Virus record (IMG/VR): IMGVR_UViG_3300032087_005532
Span: 1-20,553 of that record
DNA length: 20,553 nt
From: a virus
Reading direction: 5' to 3' (one strand)
The notes under the pieces were generated by a model. The model was not told where the DNA came from and did no database searches. It worked only from the letters and a program-made list of their open reading frames with translations. The position numbers and the translations under genes were made by a program. This document shows, piece by piece, positions 2,643 to 17,303 of the stretch. Each line of letters starts with the position of its first letter. Positions within the stretch are counted from its first letter, which is position 1.

Positions 2643-3101
2643 ATGGCAAATATTGTTAATCTATCTTGGAATGATATTGATTTTCTAGCAGATCGTTTAG
2701 TAGAGCAGATCTACCATAAAGATCTAAAATTTGATACTATATTAGCATTAGGTAGAGGTGGTTTAGTACCAGGATCTATTCTTAGTTATAAGCTAAAAGT
2801 CTCTAATTTACAAAACCTTGGCATCAATACGAGAGAAGATAATGGTAAATTTATCGATACTATCATCTATCAAAAGCCTGGAAATGTTGAAGGTAAAGTA
2901 TTAGTAGTTGATGATATCAATGATAGTGGTAAAACTTTTACCGCAGTTAGTTCATACATTGCTTCTAACTATGATATCAATGAAAATGATGTTTATTATG
3001 CGAGTTTAACTACAAAAAGTAATTCTGAGTTCAGTTTTAACACTATTACCGGTAATATCTTCTATACAGACAGTTGGTTAGTGTTTCCTTGGGATAAATA
3101 A
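2643..3101 (+). CDS. Type I phosphoribosyltransferase
   Basis: This 152-residue protein carries the PRPP-binding signature VLVVDDINDSGKT (about residues 86-98), with the two adjacent Asp typical of type I phosphoribosyltransferases, and an upstream LALGRGGLVPG loop (about 35-45). Both are hallmarks of hypoxanthine/xanthine/guanine PRTase-like enzymes, which join a base to 5-phosphoribosyl-pyrophosphate to make a nucleotide. The hood region that sets base specificity is too divergent to read. Length is normal for the compact family. A role in nucleotide salvage during infection is the simplest reading. A link with the deazaguanine genes at 15055-17303 is possible but unsupported. Its final codons and stop form part of the start element of the next gene. 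Confidence 0.85.
   Translation: MANIVNLSWNDIDFLADRLVEQIYHKDLKFDTILALGRGGLVPGSILSYKLKVSNLQNLGINTREDNGKFIDTIIYQKPGNVEGKVLVVDDINDSGKTFTAVSSYIASNYDINENDVYYASLTTKSNSEFSFNTITGNIFYTDSWLVFPWDK
3093..3100 (+). promoter_or_regulatory. Late-promoter-like GATAAATA element
   Basis: GATAAATA followed by 5 bases and the GTG at 3106. The fixed spacing supports GTG as the start, since the overlapping ATG in another frame is followed at once by TGA. Confidence 0.5.
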
Positions 3102-5867: not shown

Positions 5868-7538
5868 ATGGCTGACGTGTTAATTTCTGATCTTTCTTTT
5901 TCACAACCATTATCTGGAGATGAATTGCTCCCCATAGTACAGAACGGTACATCTTATAAGGTATCAGTCAGTGCTGTTGGAGGTACAGGTGGTGATACAG
6001 AAAACATTAACGGTCGATGTAATAATATTGGTATCGGTTATAACTATAGTAGTATTGTCGGTGGTGAATGTAATGACGTAGATGGTAACTGTAGTTTTAT
6101 TGGTGGTGGAAAAGTTAATCTATTATCAGCTGATCTTGGGTTTATTGGTGGTGGTACTGGTAATATTGTATATGCACCAGGTGGTTTTATAGGAGGTGGT
6201 GCGGGTAACGATATATGTTCCAATACATGCCTTGATACTATCGGTGGTGGTAATAGTAATACAGTTCATCCAGGATTTAAATTATCATTTATCGGTGGTG
6301 GTAGTGGTAATTTTATGGTAACCTGTAACTCTTGTGCAAGTGCAGATCCAAGTTTCAGTAACCGCGGTAATGTAATTGTCGGTGGTTCATCAAATTCGAT
6401 GGGTACCCCAGGTAGTCCTTTGAAAGGATTACCACCAATGACTAAAGATTTATGCCATAATACTATTGTAGGTGGCTATTTCAACAAAATTTATAAATTT
6501 GGTACAATTACTGAGACATTACCAGATGAAGATATAGAATCAAAATATAGCTTTGTAGGTGGTGGGTTATATAACCGTGTAAACGGTAACTATACTACTA
6601 TAGTTGGGGGGACCAATAATAAAATATATTCCGGGGTAAAAAGTAGTTTTATAGGCGGTGGTGCGTGGAATACAGTTCGTAGCGTTCCAGGTACTTCTGG
6701 TTCAAATTACTCAACTATTGTAGGAGGTTTTGGTAATACGCTTTCCGGTAACTGCAGCGTCATACTTGGTGGTAATCAAAATACACTATCTGCTGATTTC
6801 GGATTTATCGGCGGCGGTGCAACTCATACAATTAATAGTATAGGAGGTATAATTGGTGGTGGTTCGCAAAATACGATTGAAGAAAATACTTTTATCGATA
6901 CCATTGGTGGCGGTAACGGTAACTGTGTAGGTGCTAGTTTTAAGAATTCATTCATCGGCGGTGGTCTTGGTAATACGATGACCAGTGCTAGCACGGCTAG
7001 GTTTTGCTCATCTTTTAGTTCTTACACAAATAGTATAATAAGTGGTCGTGAAAATAATCTCGGCGGGTATAATTTTACGAAAACTATGTGTTCAAATACT
7101 ATTGCCGGTGGTCAATTTAACGGTATAGGTGGGGTATGTTTACAGACATATCCTAATGAAGATTTTACAGCAAATCATAATTTTATAGGCGGTGGTAAAC
7201 GAAACGCTATAAATGGTCACTGCTCTGGTATCGCTGCTGGTTATCAGAATGAAATATTTTCAAACCTTTCAGGCGCATTTATCGGTGGTGGTGTATATAA
7301 TACGATACGTAACGTCGACGGTGCATCTAATGGCCATCATTCATCTATTTTAGGTGGTAAATGTAATACAATAAGTCACGATGAATCATTTATCGCTGGT
7401 ACAGGTATAACATCGGTTTCATCTAATATGCTACATGCAAATACATTATACTTAAGTGCTGCAGCTTTACCAACTACTGACCCCGGTATACCAGGCGTTG
7501 TGTGGAGAGATGGTACAGACTTAAAGATTAGCGTTTAA
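5868..7538 (+). CDS. Tail fibre/adhesin built from Ile-Gly-Gly-Gly repeats
   Basis: This 556-residue protein has three parts. Residues 1-38 form the N-terminal module common in marine phage fibres (ISDL, then SGDELLPIVQNGTSYKVSVS), which probably attaches to the virion. Residues about 50-510 are short beta repeats with consensus [FT]IGGG..N followed by a turn, typical of a trimeric beta-helix or YadA-head-like fibre. Residues 520-556 are a C-terminal module (LYLSAAALPTTDPGIPGVVW) that recurs at the ends of phage fibre proteins. The repeats fall into two long tandem units (see the repeat entries). There are 15 Cys, unusually many for a fibre. It is the likely receptor-binding or distal fibre component. 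The MADV start is fixed by ACTAAATA upstream. Confidence 0.8.
   Translation: MADVLISDLSFSQPLSGDELLPIVQNGTSYKVSVSAVGGTGGDTENINGRCNNIGIGYNYSSIVGGECNDVDGNCSFIGGGKVNLLSADLGFIGGGTGNIVYAPGGFIGGGAGNDICSNTCLDTIGGGNSNTVHPGFKLSFIGGGSGNFMVTCNSCASADPSFSNRGNVIVGGSSNSMGTPGSPLKGLPPMTKDLCHNTIVGGYFNKIYKFGTITETLPDEDIESKYSFVGGGLYNRVNGNYTTIVGGTNNKIYSGVKSSFIGGGAWNTVRSVPGTSGSNYSTIVGGFGNTLSGNCSVILGGNQNTLSADFGFIGGGATHTINSIGGIIGGGSQNTIEENTFIDTIGGGNGNCVGASFKNSFIGGGLGNTMTSASTARFCSSFSSYTNSIISGRENNLGGYNFTKTMCSNTIAGGQFNGIGGVCLQTYPNEDFTANHNFIGGGKRNAINGHCSGIAAGYQNEIFSNLSGAFIGGGVYNTIRNVDGASNGHHSSILGGKCNTISHDESFIAGTGITSVSSNMLHANTLYLSAAALPTTDPGIPGVVWRDGTDLKISV
6093..6755 (+). repeat. Long coding repeat, unit 1 of the adhesin
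   Basis: Residues 76-296. The order of landmarks is SFIGGG, LLSADLGFIGGG, LDTIGGG, LSFIGGGSGN, KDLCHNTIVGG, LPDEDI, SFVGGG, SFIGGGAWNTV, and YSTIVGG to SGNC. The same order recurs in unit 2, so the two halves arose by an internal duplication of about 210-220 codons. Confidence 0.7.
6756..7373 (+). repeat. Long coding repeat, unit 2 of the adhesin
   Basis: Residues 297-502, with landmarks matching unit 1: TLSADFGFIGGG, IDTIGGG, NSFIGGGLGN, KTMCSNTIAGG, YPNEDF, NFIGGG, AFIGGGVYNTI and HSSILGGKCN. Spacing is kept except for a deletion of several residues near position 400. The divergence indicates an old duplication. Confidence 0.7.
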
Positions 7539-15003: not shown

Positions 15004-15040
15004 GAGACCTGGTTCATTTCTGAGCCAGGTCTCTTTTTTT
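15004..15040 (+). terminator. Strong rho-independent terminator after gp23
   Basis: GAGACCTGG (15004-15012) pairs with CCAGGTCTC (15025-15033), extended by four inner pairs to a TTTC loop and followed by seven Ts. It ends the capsid unit. No T tract lies on the other side, so it would not stop reverse-strand transcription well. Confidence 0.93.
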
Positions 15041-15054
15041 GTCTAATTATATAA

Positions 15055-15984
15055 CTATTGCTTAGACGTCTTGATATGTGCTACCGAGGTATCAACTAAA
15101 CCTGGAGCTAACTTTTCGATAAGTTCATTGCTAGTTGCTCTTACCGGGTTAATATCAATACCACCTCTACGTGCATATAAACACATGACAAACAACTCAG
15201 AAGGGTTACACATATCATGTAAACGTTTATAGATACATTCACAAATTTCTTCATGGAAATGACACTCATCTCTAAAAGAAATAACATACTTTAGAATAGA
15301 TTGAGGATCGATAACTACATTTGATTTAAGGTGAATGAATACATCACCCCAGTCAGGTTGAGACGTTACACGGCAGTTACTCTTAAGTAGACCGGAGTAA
15401 AACTTCTGTTCTACTTCTACACCTTCATCGAACATACCTTCAATCAACGTCGGGTCTTCTGTATATTGAGTAATTTTCAACTCATTGATATCTTGTAGAT
15501 CTACGTTTTCATACTCTCCAATATCCCATTCTCGTCTTGCACCGATGTTAGAGCTATCTACTTGATGACCGAGATGGAAGAATACACTAGCTTGACCACC
15601 CAGAAGAAAAGTTAAATCGTTACTAACTGTTTCTTCAAATTTCTTAATAGCGTCAAGTTTATCGCTACCCATTTTTTGCATGTTAAACGAATTTAAGTAA
15701 AGCTTAATACTCTTACTCTCAACAATATACTCACTATTACATGGGTAATTGATCTTCAACACACCTGTAACTGGTAACCCGTTATCTAAAAGGAATGAAC
15801 ATTCATATGCATTCCAGGTATCTGAACCTACAAAAGGTAGACTATCATTAAAGATATTAAGATATTGTCTATTATTTTCTCTTGGTTCCTTTACAAGCAA
15901 TTCAGGATCATATGTACTCTTATATTGAGATGTCTGACCTAGATGCTTACTAATATTACTGTTATCTAGTACGTTATTTGCCAT
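15055..15984 (-). CDS. queF: 7-cyano-7-deazaguanine (preQ0) reductase QueF
   Basis: This 309-residue protein is of the long, two-domain QueF type (E. coli 282). It has the QueF signature ESKSIKLYLNSFN (89-101), the catalytic Cys204 in LLKSNCRVTSQPDWG, which forms a thioimide with the nitrile, Asp211 in PDWG as proton donor, the substrate-binding FHE (243-245), and ARRGGIDINP. QueF reduces preQ0 to preQ1 with NADPH, normally for queuosine in tRNA. All key residues are intact. The ATG at 15984 overlaps the kinase-like gene by 11 bases and is chosen over an in-frame TTG 9 bases upstream. As the last gene of an operon with a DpdA-like enzyme, it most likely supplies preQ1 for phage DNA. Confidence 0.95.
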   Translation of the reverse strand: MANNVLDNSNISKHLGQTSQYKSTYDPELLVKEPRENNRQYLNIFNDSLPFVGSDTWNAYECSFLLDNGLPVTGVLKINYPCNSEYIVESKSIKLYLNSFNMQKMGSDKLDAIKKFEETVSNDLTFLLGGQASVFFHLGHQVDSSNIGARREWDIGEYENVDLQDINELKITQYTEDPTLIEGMFDEGVEVEQKFYSGLLKSNCRVTSQPDWGDVFIHLKSNVVIDPQSILKYVISFRDECHFHEEICECIYKRLHDMCNPSELFVMCLYARRGGIDINPVRATSNELIEKLAPGLVDTSVAHIKTSKQ

Positions 15985-16522
15985 AATTATCAAATGTATT
16001 ATATATTGTTTCTAATCGTTCTTCAACTGAACCTTTTAATCTTACAACATTTATTTTATAATGTTGAATAGCTTCTTCAAATAAATCGATCATCTTATTT
16101 CTAAATTCAACATTAGCACTTCTTTGACCATCATCTACTAAAGGTATATCAGGTTCAGTATAAAATATAATATCGTATTTTTTGATCAATTTCTCAAATA
16201 GATAACTAGCATGCAATGTAATAGCTTCAGGTACTTTACCTGTATAATACTGATACGTTGTATACATAAACCCATCTAGAATACACCTATCTAAAATGAC
16301 ATTTTTATTTCTATAAACTAAGTAGTTATGTAAATGACTATTTAAGATAGCTAGTTGAGTAAATTCATCACCATCTTCATTGATATTAAGATTATATTGC
16401 TTCGTCAGTCGTCTAGTAATTTCTGGCACGAAATCAAACTTACGAAACCTTTTATCCGTTTTTAACATTTCGAGTAAAGTAGATTTACCCGTACTTTGAG
16501 CTCCTGTAAAACTAATAACCAT
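15974..16522 (-). CDS. P-loop AAA/NadR-like kinase-type protein
   Basis: This 182-residue protein has a Walker A motif GAQSTGKST (residues 7-15), a conserved VPEITRR segment, a kinase-like ILDRCILDGFMYT strand-turn (Walker B/DR region), a YDIIFYTEPDIPL strand and a lid-like basic segment (QRSANVEFR). This order is that of the NadR/AAA_28 group of small nucleoside or ribosylnicotinamide kinases common in phages. The substrate cannot be read. Its position, overlapping the DpdA-like gene upstream by 11 bases and queF downstream by 11 bases, makes it an obligate neighbour of the deazaguanine genes. It may phosphorylate a deazaguanine-related nucleoside or act in NAD salvage. Start MVISFTG is chosen because the P-loop directly follows, as is usual in the family. 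Confidence 0.82.
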   Translation of the reverse strand: MVISFTGAQSTGKSTLLEMLKTDKRFRKFDFVPEITRRLTKQYNLNINEDGDEFTQLAILNSHLHNYLVYRNKNVILDRCILDGFMYTTYQYYTGKVPEAITLHASYLFEKLIKKYDIIFYTEPDIPLVDDGQRSANVEFRNKMIDLFEEAIQHYKINVVRLKGSVEERLETIYNTFDNYGK

Positions 16523-17303
16523 GACCAATAATATCTTTAAAGCACCAAACGTTGTGATCAATATTTTCCCATTCCGTATCTGTTACTTCGTGGTCAATTA
16601 GATCTGCTAACATAATAGAAGGCTTCTCATTCAATCCTAGATCACCAGTATATCGAAGTTCCTTAATACCCGCAACGACAGGATTTGAAGTATCGACAGA
16701 TCTAATCGTACGATCACCTACATAATTTTTAAATTCTTTTGCAAGAGAACATCCTAATAGATGGTGAGGTTTGTTTTTATTCCAAATACCATCATCTTTA
16801 AGATCTTTAATTAGCTTTTGTCTACCAGAACACCATCTTTCAAGTTTTGTCTTACCGCGACCAGTTACGATATAATAACTGAAGTCGAAACTAATTGCAA
16901 TGTAATCAGCATTTTCTGACATATAATTATAGCAGTCTACAATTTCATCATATGTTTTACCTTGTACAGCCCCGATCTTTAGACCAGGTAGGTCAGTATA
17001 CTTATTAACAAAATCATGAAAGCTTTTAATAGTTGCATAACCATCTTCAAGTACATCAGGTACGATGTAATATGATGGCTTAAGTTCTTTAGCATATTTA
17101 GCAAACTTCTCCGAATCAAACGATTCACCTAATTCGAAGATACTGTTATCGAGTAGAACTTCTCTACCCATCTTTACACTATTCTTAAAGAATTCATAAT
17201 ATTTAGGATGCGTTTCAAATAAATGAACGAGAGCATAATCATAATCATTATACTCACGTGATTTATCTAAAATAGAAATAGGACTTTCATGCGATACAAT
17301 CAT
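16512..17303 (-). CDS. dpdA: DpdA-like DNA-guanine transglycosylase
   Basis: This 263-residue protein resembles phage DpdA, the TGT-fold enzymes that exchange guanine in DNA for a 7-deazaguanine. Visible landmarks are LLDNSIFELGE (Asp52, matching the TGT substrate-binding Asp), YIVPDVLEDGYAT (Asp83), KIGAVQGKTYDE (the TGT Gln-Gly region), HHLLGCS (180-186) and SVDTSNPVV (Asp204, the candidate nucleophile). The TGT zinc site is absent, as in compact phage forms. It is the first gene of a three-gene overlapping reverse-strand operon ending in queF, and that context strongly supports the assignment. It diverges from the gene at 17353. Assignment is by motif recall and context, so a related TGT-like protein of other function is not excluded. 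Confidence 0.78.
   Translation of the reverse strand: MIVSHESPISILDKSREYNDYDYALVHLFETHPKYYEFFKNSVKMGREVLLDNSIFELGESFDSEKFAKYAKELKPSYYIVPDVLEDGYATIKSFHDFVNKYTDLPGLKIGAVQGKTYDEIVDCYNYMSENADYIAISFDFSYYIVTGRGKTKLERWCSGRQKLIKDLKDDGIWNKNKPHHLLGCSLAKEFKNYVGDRTIRSVDTSNPVVAGIKELRYTGDLGLNEKPSIMLADLIDHEVTDTEWENIDHNVWCFKDIIGHGY

Follow-up and report, generated by a model that had tools for sequence, protein, structure and literature searches.

A compact minus-strand operon in a marine, T4-like phage brings together a DpdA3-type guanine transglycosylase (DpdA), an AAA_28 P-loop kinase and the preQ0 nitrile reductase QueF, and it is likely, as far as DpdA and preQ1 alone are concerned, that this operon replaces guanine in the phage DNA with preQ1. 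The kinase lying between the two enzymes is, on the evidence of gene neighbourhoods, a recurrent partner of DpdA3 in unrelated phages. The genes, folds, catalytic residues and conserved linkage on which this reading draws were established directly. For phages that replace every guanine, the recurrent pairing of DpdA3 with a kinase and the association of a purine phosphoribosyltransferase (PRT) with 7-deazaguanine systems point to specific proteins that may take part, and they open to direct test whether bases are exchanged on DNA or in the nucleotide pool; the kinase might recycle guanine or phosphorylate a modified nucleotide.

The window and its operon

The window, by which we mean the whole stretch of DNA analysed, is a virus record of 20,553 bases (IMG/VR IMGVR_UViG_3300032087_005532) whose structural module is T4-like, with a Gp20-like portal, a prohead protease and a Gp23 major capsid protein. 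The three reverse-strand genes (dpdA 17303-16512, kinase 16522-15974, queF 15984-15055) and both of their 11-base overlaps were found exactly as first described. The features used here are as follows.

16512-17303, minus strand: dpdA, putative DpdA3-type guanine transglycosylase of 263 aa (fold, invariant residues, homologues)
16512-16522, minus strand: dpdA/kinase overlap of 11 bp, ATGGTTATTAG (sequence; kept in relatives)
15974-16522, minus strand: AAA_28 P-loop nucleoside/nucleotide kinase of 182 aa, ATG at 16522 (PF13521, fold, motifs)
15974-15984, minus strand: kinase/queF overlap of 11 bp, ATGGCAAATAA (sequence; kept in relatives)
15055-15984, minus strand: queF, long-form preQ0 nitrile reductase of 309 aa, ATG at 15984 (PF14819, PF14489, 3bp1)
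15004-15033, strand not given: strong hairpin resembling a terminator, between queF and the convergent capsid gene (folding energy)
2643-3101, plus strand: PRT (PF00156, 2e-9), unlinked to the trio

The kinase start was placed at the ATG at 16522, the TTG at 16561 in the list of open reading frames being an artefact of the longest-ORF rule. Both overlaps are kept in 29 of 44 distinct IMG/VR relatives whose DpdA is at least 75% identical, and are therefore not due to chance. The hairpin lies in a 71-nt stretch with a minimum free energy of -20.4 kcal/mol (z -5.6). Relatives of the trio differ from the window gene by gene, L010 being 93% identical in DpdA, 68% in the kinase and 93% in QueF, and L012 being 89, 87 and 67% identical, respectively; this mosaic of alleles, seen in these and related loci, suggests single-gene recombination inside the operon. 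Elsewhere in the window, a 556-aa protein with recurring FIGGG/xIxGGxxN motifs (5868-7538, plus strand) is probably structural, a repeat fibre or an adhesin-like protein, and a protein with a TnsA-like endonuclease fold (PF08722; 11182-11709, plus strand) falls in the PHROGs class of head closure, as in T4-like phages.

The transglycosylase

No match to the 263-aa protein was found by sequence in Pfam, NCBIfam or the PDB, and its two matching PHROGs families are both of unknown function, so that the DpdA assignment is upheld by fold and not by curated sequence libraries. The AlphaFold2 model (pLDDT 91, pTM 0.89) has a TIM barrel of the tRNA-guanine transglycosylase (TGT) type, which places the protein in the TGT/DpdA superfamily: the best 50 Foldseek matches in the PDB were all TGTs (best E 9.7e-9, the rest up to about 1e-7), and the viral models matched included the Cellulophaga phiST homologue, several proteins annotated as queuine tRNA-ribosyltransferases and the DpdA2 of nt-1. 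A profile of 18 homologues also recovered, weakly (E 0.02), the solved DNA-guanine transglycosylase 7ui4. The original prediction, which had made a position inside or outside this fold decisive, thus stood in calling the protein DpdA-like.

Residues D52, D83, R161, H181, G184, D204 and N251 are invariant among homologues down to 22% identity, and D52, D83, D204 and the HLLG motif are so in sets of 18 and 23 homologues. An alignment of weak significance with Escherichia coli TGT pairs VQG with IQG, HHLLG with RYLMG and D204 with the FDC aspartate. Judged from these positions, the catalytic aspartates of the superfamily (general base and nucleophile) and its base-pocket motifs appear to be present.

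It is in the type of enzyme that the first assignment has to be corrected. The protein is 49-53% identical, over more than 90% of its length, to homologues from Campylobacter firehammerviruses and from Flavobacterium phage vB_FspM_immuto (immuto), and would thus be of the small firehammervirus/immuto type (DpdA3) rather than a classical DpdA1 or DpdA2. We use the label DpdA3 on the strength of this homology and of the definition of the subfamily, which is said to have been named by Cui et al. in 2023 (NAR) and tied to complete replacement of dG. When the DpdA3 profile was aligned by hhalign to individual DpdA1 or DpdA2 sequences, the result was not significant, and fold comparison was therefore used. 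Net charge was uninformative as an indicator of a DNA or nucleotide substrate, since TGT, DpdA1, DpdA2 and DpdA3 are all acidic.

QueF, the predicted base and the supply of preQ0

The profile searches that left the transglycosylase without a Pfam or NCBIfam match recovered both halves of QueF (PF14819, 7.7e-32; PF14489, 1.3e-22), and the protein matches the bimodular QueF structure 3bp1 (E 6e-46). Cys204, Asp211, His244, Glu245 and the NADPH motif ESKSxKLY are invariant in 18 relatives. The score against the NCBIfam equivalog TIGR03138 is below cut-off (256.8 vs 293.45 bits), with nearly the whole model covered. By domains, catalytic Cys/Asp and His/Glu pairs and NADPH motif, the protein is predicted to be an intact long bimodular nitrile reductase, as had been claimed. 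Two phages that carry both QueF and DpdA provide a guide to the product: Dp-1 DNA carries dPreQ1 (PMC6884629), and in DNA of Vibrio phage 6E351A a mass that fits dPreQ1 amounts to 15% of dG (PMC12028318). Because QueF is intact and these phages carry dPreQ1, preQ1 rather than preQ0 is the best prediction for the base, in agreement with the original prediction.

A formyltransferase lies in the same block in 36 of the 98 IMG/VR loci that have 2 kb or more of downstream DNA, as it does in immuto, where we presume formylated preQ1 to be the product. Among the 44 loci of the clade to which the window belongs it was never found, and this clade would represent a formyltransferase-less subtype with dPreQ1 as its expected nucleoside.

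No homologue of FolE, QueD, QueE or QueC was found in the window, as previously noted. A 185-kb contig with a DpdA 89% identical to that of the window (L012) encodes QueC above cut-off, QueD, FolE2 (GCHY-1) and a QueE-like protein, and QueC and QueD are each present in 13 of 14 larger relative records. Because of these genes in relatives, preQ0 is probably made by the phage from genes elsewhere in its genome, of which the window is a fragment; of the two sources first proposed, the host or elsewhere in the genome, it is the second that the relatives bear out. Genes for spermidine synthase and S-adenosylmethionine decarboxylase lie near the QueE-like gene of the 185-kb relative (L166:405-1594).

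Relatives of DpdA and of the trio

Homologues of the window DpdA are present in 32 of 50,697 phage records, with hosts Campylobacter (15), Cellulophaga (5), Bacillus (5), Flavobacterium (4, immuto) and Chryseobacterium, Aeromonas and Weizmannia (one each), and at least 502 relatives were confirmed in IMG/VR. The search for the trio in other phages, proposed at the outset, found it on more than 90 IMG/VR loci, so that it is not unique to the window, and in immuto the same genes occur with the formyltransferase inserted. A grouping of 2019 placed the Campylobacter phages among phages without DpdA (PMC6884629); DNA of CP220 and CPt10 is reported to contain dADG (PMC8306585), and dG is completely replaced in firehammerviruses (PMC10273834).

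The kinase and its pairing with DpdA3

The kinase matches PF13521 (AAA_28) at 2.3e-22 (80.4 bits against a cut-off of 27), its fold is nearest to those of NadR ribosylnicotinamide kinase, dCK, dAK and TMK, and its Walker A, DRC and DDGxRS motifs are invariant. Domain and motifs thus identify a putative AAA_28/NadR-type P-loop nucleoside kinase, as had been proposed. The NadR model itself (TIGR01526) scores below cut-off (39.6 vs 341 bits), and the adenylyltransferase domain is absent.

The original prediction regarded the kinase as a non-standard member of such systems. It proves instead to be a recurrent partner, which the neighbourhoods examined indicate to have been supplied by several different kinase families. 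An AAA_28 kinase shares a locus with DpdA in 92 of the 98 IMG/VR loci, in 83 of them within 1.2 kb; in L049-L053 the formyltransferase-kinase-QueF block is intact but lies about 6.5 kb away from DpdA. In other lineages the neighbour of DpdA3 is an AAA_18 kinase (phi13:1 and MA9V-3; in L171, AAA_18 lies inside a larger protein), a phrog_761 'thymidylate kinase' (BSTP12 and Youna2) or a T4 gp1-type dNMP kinase (Ahp1 and L175). The Ahp1 kinase is an extra copy, as a separate and stronger dNMP kinase match lies about 174 kb from DpdA in record coordinates. In a small sample whose members are partly related, a kinase adjoins DpdA in nine of 10 phages taken to represent DpdA3 (eight detected by Walker A, L171 by Pfam) and in the tenth, MaInes, a dNMP kinase lies about 6 kb off in the same cluster, whereas no adjacent kinase was found by the same Walker A test in five DpdA1/DpdA2 control phages. 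These controls are isolate phages, because the Bacillus and CAjan DpdA retrieved no or few loci from IMG/VR. The more divergent DpdA relatives L177-L195 also showed no adjacent kinase.

Several further genes were seen in these neighbourhoods. Large relatives carry a second, longer AAA_28 kinase paralogue (among others G001 at 53.7 kb; G002 at 43.8 kb, L168:3579-4346; L170:10390-11145), which lies beside QueE in L170 and in the QueE/QueD region in L168; most large relatives, and also CP220 and CC_R7, have two kinases per genome. In several phage groups, distant DpdA genes are adjoined by that of a small protein that carries the motif EGxHxxP...HRHxF and matches no Pfam family with confidence (L004:7174-7521, L175:4621-5001, L177:921-1289), which in L171:4082-4996 forms the N-terminal part of a protein, apparently fused to the AAA_18 kinase. 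A dCTP deaminase-like (DCD) gene lies near DpdA in two distant DpdA groups (L008:7430-7966, L171:3555-4082), and others are DCD-like by sequence resemblance (L175-L195, L005:3806-4363).

The purine phosphoribosyltransferase

The PRT, which co-occurs with these systems and lies about 12 kb from the trio on the opposite strand, was overlooked in the original prediction. Of the 50,697 phage records only 31 have a homologue of it. The Campylobacter, Cellulophaga and Flavobacterium groups in which the DpdA homologue occurs account for 24 of these, and the Brevundimonas phages MaInes and StAshley for another two; MaInes has preQ0 genes and, beside its DNA polymerase, an unannotated 266-aa gene (L210:3676-4476) that matches the DpdA3 profile (2e-13) and was located by way of the PRT homologue. 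A further one, Synechococcus phage BUCT-ZZ01, combines a QueE-PRT-QueD-FolE cluster with a relative of DpdA2, and the remaining four records are unannotated. The PRT thus appears to track 7-deazaguanine systems, and since the 31 records come from few independent lineages this is an association and not a count of independent events. Several copies are annotated as xanthine-guanine phosphoribosyltransferase, and the natural reading of its role would be that it salvages guanine released in the exchange. The DpdA3 phages of Bacillus and Weizmannia have the kinase, but no homologue of the PRT was found in them, and recycling fits these phages less well.

Mechanism and alternatives

The identity of the base, the extent and site of exchange and the substrates of kinase and PRT are what we infer in the following scheme, to which, taken as a whole, we give an even chance. 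FolE2, QueD, QueE and QueC encoded elsewhere in the phage genome (judging from relatives) would make preQ0, which QueF would reduce to preQ1; the DpdA3-type transglycosylase would then put preQ1 in the place of guanine. Its substrate is most likely replicated DNA and the replacement most likely extensive, and G-reading restriction enzymes would fail to recognize the preQ1-DNA. The kinase, as part of the module, would act on (deoxy)guanine nucleotides and, most likely, would work with the PRT to return expelled guanine to the GTP/dGTP pool (guanine to GMP to GDP), pulling the exchange forward. The TGT fold, conserved catalytic-type residues and intact QueF, the DpdA homologues in phages with complete dG replacement, the preQ0 genes of large relatives and the linkage of kinase and PRT support this scheme; the distance and strand of the PRT and the lack of an adjacent kinase in L177-L195 weaken it. 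Exchange on DNA is favoured over exchange in the nucleotide pool because dADG phosphates were reportedly not detected in Campylobacter phage infections and because no dGTP-removing enzyme was found in the clade: of the three hydrolase families tried, MazG, HD and PRA-PH, none reached its cut-off in the large T4-like relatives of the window. A later survey is also said to have termed 7-deazaguanine insertion post-replicative.

It is possible, if on balance unlikely, that DpdA3 instead acts on dGMP or another deoxyguanosine nucleotide, the resulting d(preQ1)MP being phosphorylated by the kinase and incorporated by the polymerase, with complete replacement of dG as the consequence. DmtZ of Z-genome phages, which exchanges the base of a nucleotide, offers a precedent (PMC12884076). 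It is with DpdA3, and not with DpdA1 or DpdA2, that nucleotide kinases from several families pair, the Ahp1 dNMP kinase beside DpdA is additional to a canonical one, a DNA polymerase adjoins in several phages, and the phi13:1 and immuto groups have MazG-type or PRA-PH hydrolases close to DpdA. The two reports just mentioned and the hydrolase search in the window's relatives count against it. MazG/PRA-PH was dropped as a universal DpdA3 partner, not having been found in the window's clade, and the HD-domain neighbour in CP220 was not counted as a dGTPase because it is an HD + AAA_33 protein, which we take to resemble the RNA-repair enzyme HD-Pnk. Rather unlikely, in our estimation, is the broader proposal that DpdA3 enzymes generally are nucleotide-level (dGMP) transglycosylases with kinases co-opted independently from several families to feed the polymerase, total guanine replacement then being made before replication and not after.

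An improbable reading is that DpdA and QueF modify DNA with preQ1 while the kinase is a general dNMP/NMP kinase for replication, merely co-transcribed; dNMP kinases are common in phages and the kinase block of L049-L053 is distant from DpdA, but the linkage in 92 of 98 loci and the convergent pairing in other lineages argue otherwise. That the trio raises host tRNA queuosine instead of modifying DNA, an idea raised for phages with preQ0 genes and without DpdA (PMC6884629) and in keeping with the use of preQ1 by bacterial TGT, is hardly credible given a TGT-fold protein whose homologues occur in phages with modified DNA and which has 263 aa against the 375 aa of E. coli TGT.

Comparison with known systems

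Z-genome phages (PurZ, DatZ/MazZ, DmtZ) likewise combine complete base replacement with phage nucleotide-metabolism enzymes; they differ in the base and in having unrelated enzymes, and no dNTP hydrolase was found in the window's clade. Dp-1 and 6E351A resemble the window in having DpdA and QueF, with dPreQ1 as the predicted product, but have a DpdA1- or DpdA2-type enzyme and partial modification (1.7 and 15% of dG, respectively), and Dp-1, unlike the window, has no kinase beside DpdA. The firehammerviruses CP220 and CPt10 have, like the window, a DpdA homologue (49% identical) followed directly by an AAA_28 kinase (40%), as well as a PRT; in contrast to the window, no QueF homologue was found in them, and their base is dADG, with dG wholly replaced. 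The closest known arrangement is that of immuto, which shares all three proteins (DpdA 53%, kinase 35% and QueF 47% identical) and their order but has the formyltransferase and a small ORF between DpdA and the kinase and preQ0 genes adjacent, neither of which the window has, whereas the 11-bp overlaps are a feature of the window. By sequence, then, the parts of the window all come from known families, and immuto already has the genes in this order plus an insertion. What appears new relative to the accessible literature is the formyltransferase-less subtype with 11-bp overlaps, which is widespread in IMG/VR, the convergent pairing of DpdA3 with kinases and the association with the PRT.
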